NCBI GenBank assembly: GCA_030604135.1
Contig: JAUVWL010000015.1
Location: 1 to 64,000 of the forward strand
Direction of reading: 5' to 3'
Source: Burkholderiales bacterium
GTDB lineage: Bacteria > Pseudomonadota > Gammaproteobacteria > Burkholderiales > Burkholderiaceae_C
DNA: 64,000 nucleotides
The number at the start of each line of letters is the position of its first letter. Within the stretch, counting starts at the first letter, position 1. Under the pieces are notes generated by a model. The model saw only the letters and a list, made by a program, of their open reading frames with translations, had not been told where the DNA came from and searched no databases. Positions 13,690 to 56,030 of this stretch are shown here, one piece after another. The position numbers and the translations under genes are program-made.

Positions 13690-13768
13690 CCTGCGCGCCT
13701 TTGGCGCTTCCGCCCTGGGGAGGGACGACGCTGGCGGCCCGGCAAAGCCGGTTCCGCCGCGTCCACTG
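13690..13768 (-). repeat. interspersed GC-rich repeat, copy 1
   Basis: This intergenic element between glpQ and glpU shares an exact 20-bp core (13736-13755, GGCCCGGCAAAGCCGGTTCC) and flanking similarity with an oppositely oriented copy at 55950-56030. Each copy also carries a short GC hairpin of the type GCGCC..GGCG. It lies inside an operon and is therefore transcribed. Confidence 0.6.
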
Positions 13769-23883: not shown

Positions 23884-26082
23884 TCAGACCTTGAGGTAAT
23901 CGGCCCGGTTGCCCAGCCATCGTGTCACGTGTCTGCTGGCCGACTCAGGGTGTAGGCTCAGCATGTCGGCGGCCGCCTGACGGGCCCATTCGAGCAGATG
24001 GATGTCGGTGGCCAGATCGGCAAAGCGCAACAAGGGCGCTCCAGACTGCCGAGCCCCCAGGAACTCGCCCGGCCCGCGGATCTCCAGGTCGCGCCGGGCG
24101 ATCTCGAAACCATCGCTGGTCTCGGCCATGGCCTTCAGTCGCTCTCGCGCCGTCTCACCCAGTCGGCCGCCTTCATGGGGCGTGTACATGAGCACACAAG
24201 CCGATGCAGCCGCTCCCCGGCCCACGCGACCGCGCAACTGGTGCAGCTGACTCAATCCAAAGCGCTCGGCGTGCTCGATCACCATCAACGACGCATTGGG
24301 CACATCCACACCCACCTCGATCACCGTGGTCGAGACCAGCACTCCCATCTGGCCGCCGCTGAACAAGGCCATCACAGCCTTCTTCTCGGCCACAGGCATG
24401 CGCGAGTGCAGCAGACCAACGATCACGCCCGGGAGCAGCTGGCTCAGTTCCGCGTGCGTCGCGGTGGCGTTCGACAGATCGATCGCCTCGCTCTCCTCGA
24501 TCAGCGGGCACACCCAGTAGACCTGCCGGCCCGCAGCCACCTGGGCGCGTATGCGTTCGATCACCTCGTGGCGGCGGCTGTCGGACACCACCTTGGTGAC
24601 GATGGGCGTGCGGCCGGGCGGCAGCTCTTCAATGGTGGAAACGTCCAGGTCGGCGTAGTAACTCATGGCCAGCGTGCGCGGGATCGGCGTCGCGCTCATC
24701 ATCAACAGATGGGGTTCAGACAGGGACCCGTCTTCCAACAAGGGCCCGTCATCCCCGCGTACGCGGGAATCCAGCCCAGCCGCATCCGACTTTGGATCCC
24801 CGCCGCCGGCGGGGCGACGGTAAGGGGTCTTGGACCGAAGCGCCAGCCGCTGTGCCACCCCGAAGCGGTGCTGTTCGTCGATGATGGCCAGGGCAAGGTT
24901 CTTGAACTGCACCTGGTCCTGAATGACCGCGTGCGTGCCCACCACCAGCGCGGCCTCACCGCTGGCGATGAGTGCCAGCATCTCGGTGCGCTGCTTCTTT
25001 TTCTGGCTGCCGGTCAGCCAGGCGACGCGTTTGCCCAGGGGCTCCAGCAGGGGCTCGAGCCACCCGATGAGCTTGGCAAAGTGTTGTTCGGCCAGGATCT
25101 CGGTCGGCGCCATCAGCGCGCACTGCCAGCCGCTGTCGATGGCGATGGTGGCGGCCAGTGCGGCCACCACCGTCTTGCCCGAGCCCACGTCGCCCTGCAG
25201 CAAACGGTGCATGGGAACGGACCGCTGCAAATCACGCGCAATCTCCTCGCCCACGCGGCGCTGCGCAGCGGTCAGGGCAAAAGGCAGCGCGACCAGCAAT
25301 TGCTCGTGCAGGCCGCCAGCTTGCGTCTGCAGCGACGGAGCACGCAGCGCATCTCGCTCCCGCTTGGCTTGCAGTTGCGAGAGCTGCTGGGCCAGCAATT
25401 CCTCGGCTTTCAGGCGCTGCCAGGCCGGGTGGCTGTGGTCCTCCAGCGCAGCCAGCGACACGTCGGGGCCCGGGTGGTGCAGAAACTCCAGCGCCTGGCG
25501 CAGCGACATGAGCGGTGCGCGAAGGCCACGCAAGGCTTCCTGCAATGAGGCCAGCACCGGCGGTGGCAAGGTCTCGCTCAGGTCCGCGCGATTGAGACCC
25601 GCCGCCACCGCTTTGCGCAGGTAGGCCTGTGGCAGCTGGGCACTGGTCGGGTAAACCGGTGTCAGCGATCCGGGCAACGCCCCCCCCGCCGCATGAAAGG
25701 CCGGGTGCATCATGGTCCTGCCCAGGAAACCGCCGCGCAGCTCACCACGCACTCGCACCCTTGCACCCACCGCCAGGGCCTTCTGGTGGGACGGGTAGAA
25801 GCTGAAGAAGCGCAGGGTGCAGGTGTCGCTGCCATCGTCCAGGGTCACCAGCAATTGCCGGCGCGGGCGCTGCGTGATCTCCTGCCGGGTGACCGTGCCC
25901 TCGACCTGCACCACCTGGCCGTCGTGCGCTTCCCGCAGGGAGACGATGCGGGTTTCGTCTTCGTACCGCAGCGGCAGGTGCAGCGCCAGGTCGATGTCAC
26001 GCACCAGACCGAGCTTTTGCATGGCTTTCTGCGGGGCAGAGAGTTCCTTGCGAAGGGCGGCAGGTGGCGTGGCGGCTGGCAT
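23884..26082 (-). CDS. recG: ATP-dependent DNA helicase RecG
   Basis: 732 aa. A wedge/OB domain (about 1-250) is followed by the helicase core: motif [18 protein letters not shown], motif Ia [11 protein letters not shown], motif [18 protein letters not shown], motif [18 protein letters not shown], and motif [11 protein letters not shown]. RecG remodels stalled forks and Holliday junctions. Between motifs II and III an unusual linker of about 40 residues contains DSRVRGDDG, the translation of a REP-like doublet (24748-24818). The reading frame stays intact. Confidence 0.97.
24748..24818. repeat. REP doublet inserted in frame within recG
   Basis: Two 26-bp palindromic units face each other: 24748-24773 (GTC..CCA, containing CCCGCGTACGCGGG) and 24793-24818 (TGG..GAC, with CCCCGCC/GGCGGGG), 19 bp apart. 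The same GTC-N20-CCA / TGG-N20-GAC layout occurs at 31529-31609. Within recG it encodes about residues 421-445 without stop or frameshift. Confidence 0.85.
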
Positions 26083-31248: not shown

Positions 31249-32856
<1,608 letters not shown>

Positions 32857-54951: not shown

Positions 54952-55010
54952 TCTTGCGGCCCACACGCTCCGTCGCCGCTGTCCGTCACTCCCGCGAATG
55001 CGGCAGTCCA
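54952..55010. repeat. composite repeat: 84-bp-unit fragment plus one REP
   Basis: The segment 54952-54984 resembles the junction of the 31249-31519 array (GGTCTT, CCCACACGCTCCG). It is followed by a 26-bp REP-type unit (54985-55010, GTC..CCA, slightly degenerate). It lies between purU and the LysR gene. The order array fragment then REP is the same as at 31.5 kb. Confidence 0.7.
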
Positions 55011-55949: not shown

Positions 55950-56030
55950 CCAAGGATGCGGTGGAACCGGCTTTGCCGGGCCACTCGCATCGCCCCCTGG
56001 GGGGTGACGCCGCAGGCGGCGCGGGGCGTT
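55950..56030 (+). repeat. interspersed GC-rich repeat, copy 2
   Basis: Inverted relative to the 13690-13768 copy; the shared exact 20-bp core is 55963-55982. It fills the gap between the ends of the LysR and hsp20 genes and includes CCCCCTGGGGGG, able to form a terminator-like hairpin without a T-run. Confidence 0.6.

Follow-up and report, generated by a model that had tools for sequence, protein, structure and literature searches.

The recG gene and its repeats

The window analysed here is the whole stretch of 64,000 nucleotides, taken from a Hydrogenophaga genome of 3.98 Mb in 51 contigs (G000). On its minus strand, recG forms a single open frame of 732 codons whose product carries the Pfam domains DEAD, Helicase_C, RecG wedge and RecG_dom3_C. 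The NCBIfam RecG model matches the protein with 1137.5 bits over residues 11–732 (cut-off 864), in agreement with the first-pass annotation, which had described the frame as intact. The features considered are the following.

23884..26082, minus strand: recG, 732 codons, ATP-dependent DNA helicase RecG (ORF; Pfam and NCBIfam matches)
24856..24879, minus strand: DEQHRFGV, residues 402–409, the helicase motif II region (ORF translation, alignment)
24718..24828, minus strand: loop between motifs II and III, residues 419–455, with the REP-encoded part at 422–446 (translation, alignment, model)
24673..24699, minus strand: MSATPIPRT, residues 462–470, the helicase motif III region (ORF translation, alignment)
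24747..24773, plus strand: REP unit 1, CGTC-tagged, 0 mismatches to the family pattern (pattern search, stem check)
24774..24792, no strand: spacer of the recG doublet, 19 nt (pair measurement)
24793..24819, minus strand: REP unit 2, facing unit 1, 3 mismatches (pattern search, stem check)
31249..31534, minus strand: tandem copies of repeat D with an 84-nt period, D being present also in RecG loops of other genera (repeat search)
31528..31610, no strand: intergenic REP doublet of the same family and arrangement as the recG doublet, 29-nt spacer (pattern search)
54984..55010, plus strand: single REP unit of the same family (pattern search)

Inside recG, positions 24748–24773 read GTC-N20-CCA and positions 24793–24818 read TGG-N20-GAC, the layout that had been noticed also in the intergenic pair at 31528–31610 and is indeed common to both; the leading C of the tag extends the units to 27 bp. 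The description of two facing palindromes holds, with one correction. The facing units are real, since the family pattern at up to three mismatches has five matches in the window (two in recG, two at 31528–31610 and one at 54984–55010) and none in 100 dinucleotide shuffles of it. The palindromes themselves are imperfect, with 7 of 8 stem pairs in unit 1 and 5 of 8 in register in unit 2 (G-T counted). The CGTC tag and the CCA tail are present in both units. The doublet is translated into 25 residues, 422–446 of RecG, as the first estimate of about 25 had it. A 5-bp direct repeat, CCCTT, spotted by eye next to the doublet is too short to be meaningful.

Strong purifying selection acts on recG to either side of the loop: pairwise comparisons with the gene studied here give Ka/Ks of 0.05–0.09 for the two halves, values that span the time before the insertion as well. 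The available part of a paper on Wolbachia (PMC4224334) reports purifying selection on recG and names no repeat inside the gene.

No Rfam family was found at the gathering score for the REP doublets or D copies submitted, and low-scoring miRNA and Ysr141 matches were set aside as below that score. A match to Ysr141, a Yersinia sRNA, at 24991–25262 on the strand opposite recG reaches 49.2 bits against a cut-off of 196 and is probably conserved recG sequence.

The CGTC repeat family in this genome

The reading of the doublet as an insertion had been made to depend on the palindromes being repeated elsewhere in the genome, and they are. A 21-base pattern with up to three mismatches finds 85 forward and 82 reverse places in the whole genome, against 8 and 6 for the reversed-pattern control, and a 27-base pattern finds 41 and 40 against none in either direction. 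The REP units of recG belong to a genome-dispersed family. The repeat was matched in 10 of 60 genomes sampled from the genus and is abundant in three of them (G000, G041 and G042).

Unit statistics were taken from 275.7 kb, including the window, with a loose pattern that itself includes the tag and allows four mismatches; at least 105 units were obtained, and all counts in this paragraph are among the matches listed. The tag is CGTC in 83 of the 105 units and TGTC in 6, and the tail is CCA in 96. All eight stem pairs, G-T included, are formed in 81 units, the first pair being AT in 94. The 4-nt loops are mostly GAAC (29) and GCAC (28), followed by GAAA (10) and others. Stem changes are compensated: pair 3 is TA in 64 units, GC in 16, AT in 10 and CG in 6. 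Among 35 close pairs, the tags lie outside (head-head) in 25 and inside in 9, and one pair is in tandem. The units are mostly free of stop codons, with five of the six frames open in 87 units and all six in 15 (102 of 105 together), and 23 of the 35 doublets are open in four or five frames. The GTAG tag of the GTAG REPs that go with a RAYT (REPtron) was not encountered, the tag here being CGTC. By its sequence features, the family fits the CGTC-1 REP class as set out in the available part of Di Nocera et al. 2013 (PMC3733652): a tag of CGTC, TGTC or CCTC, an 8-bp stem that begins with AT residues, a 4-nt loop, a CCA tail and mostly head-head dimers, with some units being intragenic.

The genic share was also determined. 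Among the matches listed, 5 of the 66 sites read lie in frame within genes, four genes in all, and the remaining 61 were not recognised as genic. The codon-usage scan was weak, and the calls were decided by GC content by codon position and family searches, by which genes may be missed. Besides recG, the sole repair gene of the four, the carriers are as follows, each called on codon-position GC and family search.

C28:175229-175314 (L173): rsmG, a REP doublet in frame
C18:72125-72151 and 72719-72745 (L205): a WbpP-like epimerase, two single REP units in frame
C49:70362-70388 (L189): an XrtA-type amidotransferase, one REP unit in frame

When these three proteins are aligned with solved homologues, every insert coincides with a gap.

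The loop between motifs II and III

Between the conserved residues K418 and E456 lie 37 residues. Measured from QRLALR to PH, as are the loops of its clade below, the loop is 40 residues long, which matches the earlier figure. In an AlphaFold model built from an alignment of 44 sequences (mean pLDDT 83.4), residues 425–451 have a pLDDT below 50 and are placed between a helix at 409–416 and a strand at 458–463. A single-sequence model with a mean pLDDT of 35.3 was discarded in favour of the alignment-based one. The first-ranked solved match of the model is 1gm5, RecG on a three-way junction. The solved RecG structures 9wm0 and 1gm5 can be aligned before and after the loop, where they have only about 5 to 6 residues and no insert. 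The loop is probably disordered and at the protein surface.

Among 50 RecG proteins of the genus, the N-terminus (read stop to stop) aside, low-occupancy inserts of at least 10 residues occur at two sites only, near residues 424 and 550 of the protein studied here. The first-pass annotation had placed the repeats in an essential-core region of the helicase. This has to be corrected: the insert sits outside the catalytic core, in a loop of low model confidence and very variable length.

Close relatives and the age of the insert

RecG loops could be read in 50 of the 60 genus genomes. In one of the other ten (G020) the matches flank a short loop, and the remaining nine gave only fragments or weak matches. 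A quick RecG tree from which the loops were left out places the gene in a seven-member clade (SH-aLRT 100). Five members of this clade (G042, G027, G055, G046 and G021; loci L054–L058) have a loop of 12 residues, while the nearest relative, G018, has a different loop of 44 residues that is itself made of another dispersed repeat. Therefore, the insert is young relative to the sample. The possibility raised at the outset, that close relatives might all carry an unrelated linker of equal length, applies to G018 alone and not to the five with 12 residues. With the family repeated across the genome and the loop short in five clade members, the original reading of a REP insertion is supported overall.

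The exact insert in recG was seen in one genome only. Among the best 120 of 2525 protein hits, no second protein exceeds 67% over residues 400–470, and six others (P0002–P0006 and P0023) have peptides of the CGTC type at this loop, a likeness at the peptide level only. In P0023 the first CGTC-type unit is read in another frame.

Several repeat types in the same loop

The repeats found in RecG loops were named A (the CGTC REP), B (the GGAACCGGCTTTGCCGGGCC type), C (the CTTCGACARGCTCAG type), D and E. In the genus, 18 of 50 loops carry motif A, B or C, with A in this genome only and B in both orientations. The B patterns match 54 of the 60 genomes and the C patterns 49, all reversed controls being zero. 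The eight genomes with C in the loop, in two of which half a C stands beside B, are richer in C places than the remaining 42 (Mann-Whitney p 7e-5), and 6 of the 8 have at least 20 such places against 3 of the 42 (Fisher p 1.3e-4), counts that include the recG copies and ignore relatedness. By parsimony, with states assigned by hand and gains not separated from losses, 10 changes are needed when only the presence or absence of an insert is scored, and 13 when five states are distinguished. The B type is the one in the loop of G018. In the window, positions 13722–13764 and 55954–55996 are inverted copies, 84% complementary, that hold the core of repeat B.

A family sample of 150 genomes from 141 genera, including this genome and one congener, gave RecG in 148 and readable loops in 147; the one missing belongs to a stretch that ended with its contig. 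Defining a long loop as one of at least 20 residues and using 120-nt segments further down recG as control, we found 39 long loops, 20 of which carry a repeat motif (A in 1, B in 2, C in 2, D in 11 and E in 4), a count that is partly circular for D and E because both were recognised by reading these loops. A motif is present in 1 of the 108 short loops and in none of the 147 control segments. None of the five types was matched in 19 of the 39 long loops.

Dispersal outside recG differs between the types. Places of repeat C number 155 in G188 and 93 in G001; those of B, recG copies included, number 11 in G101 and 5 in G078. The exact hairpin of E occurs 11 times in G129 and 6 times in G103 (recG copy included in both), 3 times in G149 and once in G065, so that dispersal of E is shown for the first two, weakly for G149 and not for G065, whose sole copy is the one in recG. 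REPs are not alone in this: in relatives, the loop is occupied by at least three further types of repeat. It seems to be a site at which a core enzyme tolerates repeat DNA. Types B and D, in which common blocks of sequence are seen by eye, may be distantly related.

Origin of the insert

The explanation that we hold to be highly probable is the insertion of a mostly stop-free REP dimer into a tolerant RecG loop, filtered by selection. A head-head dimer of the CGTC-1 type would have entered the motif II-III loop of recG after the split from the sampled relatives, by a mobile process, adding about 28 codons net and leaving frame and fold unbroken. Frame and fold would be kept because CGTC units are stop-free in most frames and the loop is probably disordered and very variable in length. 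The enlarged RecG would be made and working, and selection for a working enzyme would let the insert stay. In general, such elements would land in many places, and within genes mostly those landings that keep the frame in tolerant loops would survive. Repeats B, C, D and E would have entered the same loop in other species for the same reason as the REP, the recurrence reflecting tolerance and not the choice of a target.

Repeat D and the case for a preferred target

A different account is that the DNA of the recG loop attracts insertion, or that loops are exchanged between the recG genes of different species, with tolerance as the precondition. We consider this unlikely, and it is repeat D that speaks for it. 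In the family sample, D lies in the first loop of 11 genomes, always in the same orientation. At the second site, near residue 550, 143 loops were readable and 11 are long; four of these (L224 = G181, L231 = G103, L247 = G061 and L253 = G074), from four genera, hold D in frame, always reversed, where it is read as SPHAPPLRGSLPPEG. G103 has E in its first loop and D in its second. No repeat motif was found in the 132 short second loops. In the genus, eight genomes have second-site inserts of 21 to 49 residues beyond the usual length (L046–L050, L052, L053 and L064); one of the eight matches a repeat motif (L064, type B), and some share GC-rich sequence.

The recG copies of D are also unusually alike. 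Across eight genera their mean identity is 0.934, against 0.863 for the next 240 nt and 0.746 for the third positions of that flank. The identity of D is higher than that of the third positions in all 28 genus pairs and higher than that of the whole flank in 26 of them; between G199 and G206, D is 100% identical against 70% at third positions. In 7 of 7 genomes, the recG copy resembles those in recG of other genera more than it does the sampled copies from its own genome, although the latter are 20 high-ranking matches to one recG copy and not all copies. Because the identity of D exceeds that of the flank and third positions and the recG copies resemble each other, D was probably not simply inherited with recG. 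Repeated insertion, exchange between species or a constraint on the DNA could each account for the similarity. Pure tolerance does not predict the near identity of D across genera, nor its fixed and opposite orientations in the two loops.

Searched with a strict 36-base pattern, G196, G206 and G130 have no D match besides the recG copy, and G114 and G202 have none at all. Looser matching gives 6 to 41 D-like places per genome, recG copy included, in nine of the eleven D-loop genomes (the nine do not include G114 and G202). The loop codons flanking D differ between genera, which argues against a plain exchange of recG segments. Types A, B and C have, by eye, no target in common with D, and B occurs in both orientations.

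The structure of D deserves separate description. Its arms, which vary from copy to copy yet pair together, enclose a 16-nt loop, GCCGGGCCGCCCCAAG, in which up to 2 changes were permitted. At least 6 contiguous Watson-Crick pairs are formed in 36 of 55 distinct copies with 33 different arms (32 of 53 in another count), whereas 300 shuffles of arms between copies give 4.5% on average and 16.4% at most. Such hairpins occur at L254, L360, L361, L369, L382, L385, L389, L392 and other loci, and at 31249–31534 in the window, where the arms form only 4 bp. To the eye, the outer arm often resembles host sequence, namely the start codon or the ribosome site of a gene that points away from the repeat. 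Given this resemblance, the inner arm may have been copied from the flank as its reverse complement.

A further form of a targeted mechanism is that the motif II-III loop is a genuine family-wide hot spot and not only a tolerant one, which several kinds of intergenic repeat would enter time and again and at which D would take a fixed orientation per loop and have an arm complementary to the flank at most sites, by a snap-back or guide-like process. This we regard as doubtful.

Adaptive, RNA and artefactual explanations

Against the background of tolerated insertion, an adaptive role for the peptide seems very improbable. It would alter the activity of RecG and be favoured, for example by producing a mutator state, and repair genes do recur among the published intragenic REPs in the available part of PMC3733652. 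However, five peptides of differing composition occupy the loop, the loop is of very low model confidence and the other REP-hit genes of this genome are not repair genes.

Equally improbable is a role at the RNA level, in which hairpins in the recG mRNA would tune its level and the peptide would be a by-product. The compensated changes across the 105 units (among the matches listed) speak for such a role, but stem pairs have been lost from each of the recG units (3 of 8 in the second), and relatives have other repeats or none in the loop. Finally, an assembly artefact or chance palindromes, to which the restriction of the exact insert to one genome could be ascribed, can be practically dismissed given the shuffles without a match, the preserved frame and the six other RecG proteins with CGTC-type peptides in the same loop.

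Relation to known systems and significance

The statements on published repeats in this and the next paragraph follow the available part of Di Nocera et al. (PMC3733652). CGTC-1 repeats are there equated with Rickettsia RPE-6 and Neisseria dRS3, and RPE-4 with CGTC-4, which makes the comparison with the palindromic elements of Rickettsia drawn in the first-pass annotation an apt one. As with RPE-4 and RPE-6, palindromic repeats lie here in frame within genes, and for recG the in-frame insertion is absent from relatives, five clade members having the short loop. Unlike the Rickettsia elements, the repeats belong to a 4-Mb Hydrogenophaga genome in which 61 of the 66 sites were not recognised as genic (among the matches listed).

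CGTC repeats inside genes, many of them for DNA repair, have already been published, and its authors speculate on a mutator state brought about by REPs in repair genes. The words Comamonadaceae, Acidovorax and recG are absent from the main text as available. In the recB gene of two Xanthomonas species, different REPs likewise occupy about the same site of a repair gene; unlike that case, one loop here holds several repeat types across many genera. A RecG loop common to several repeat types was not found in the open-access literature, which is no proof of its absence.

The RecG loop amounts to a naturally repeated experiment in the turning of intergenic repeats into protein, in which one loop of one core enzyme has taken up several repeats in many species. 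It provides a means of dating and counting the movements of repeats, and it is a warning against taking such loops as functional. Whether palindromic inserts pass a neutral filter or serve the adaptive tuning of repair genes becomes testable with RecG in E. coli. If the hot-spot reading were true, RecG, an enzyme of branched DNA, would record the mobility of repeats lineage by lineage.
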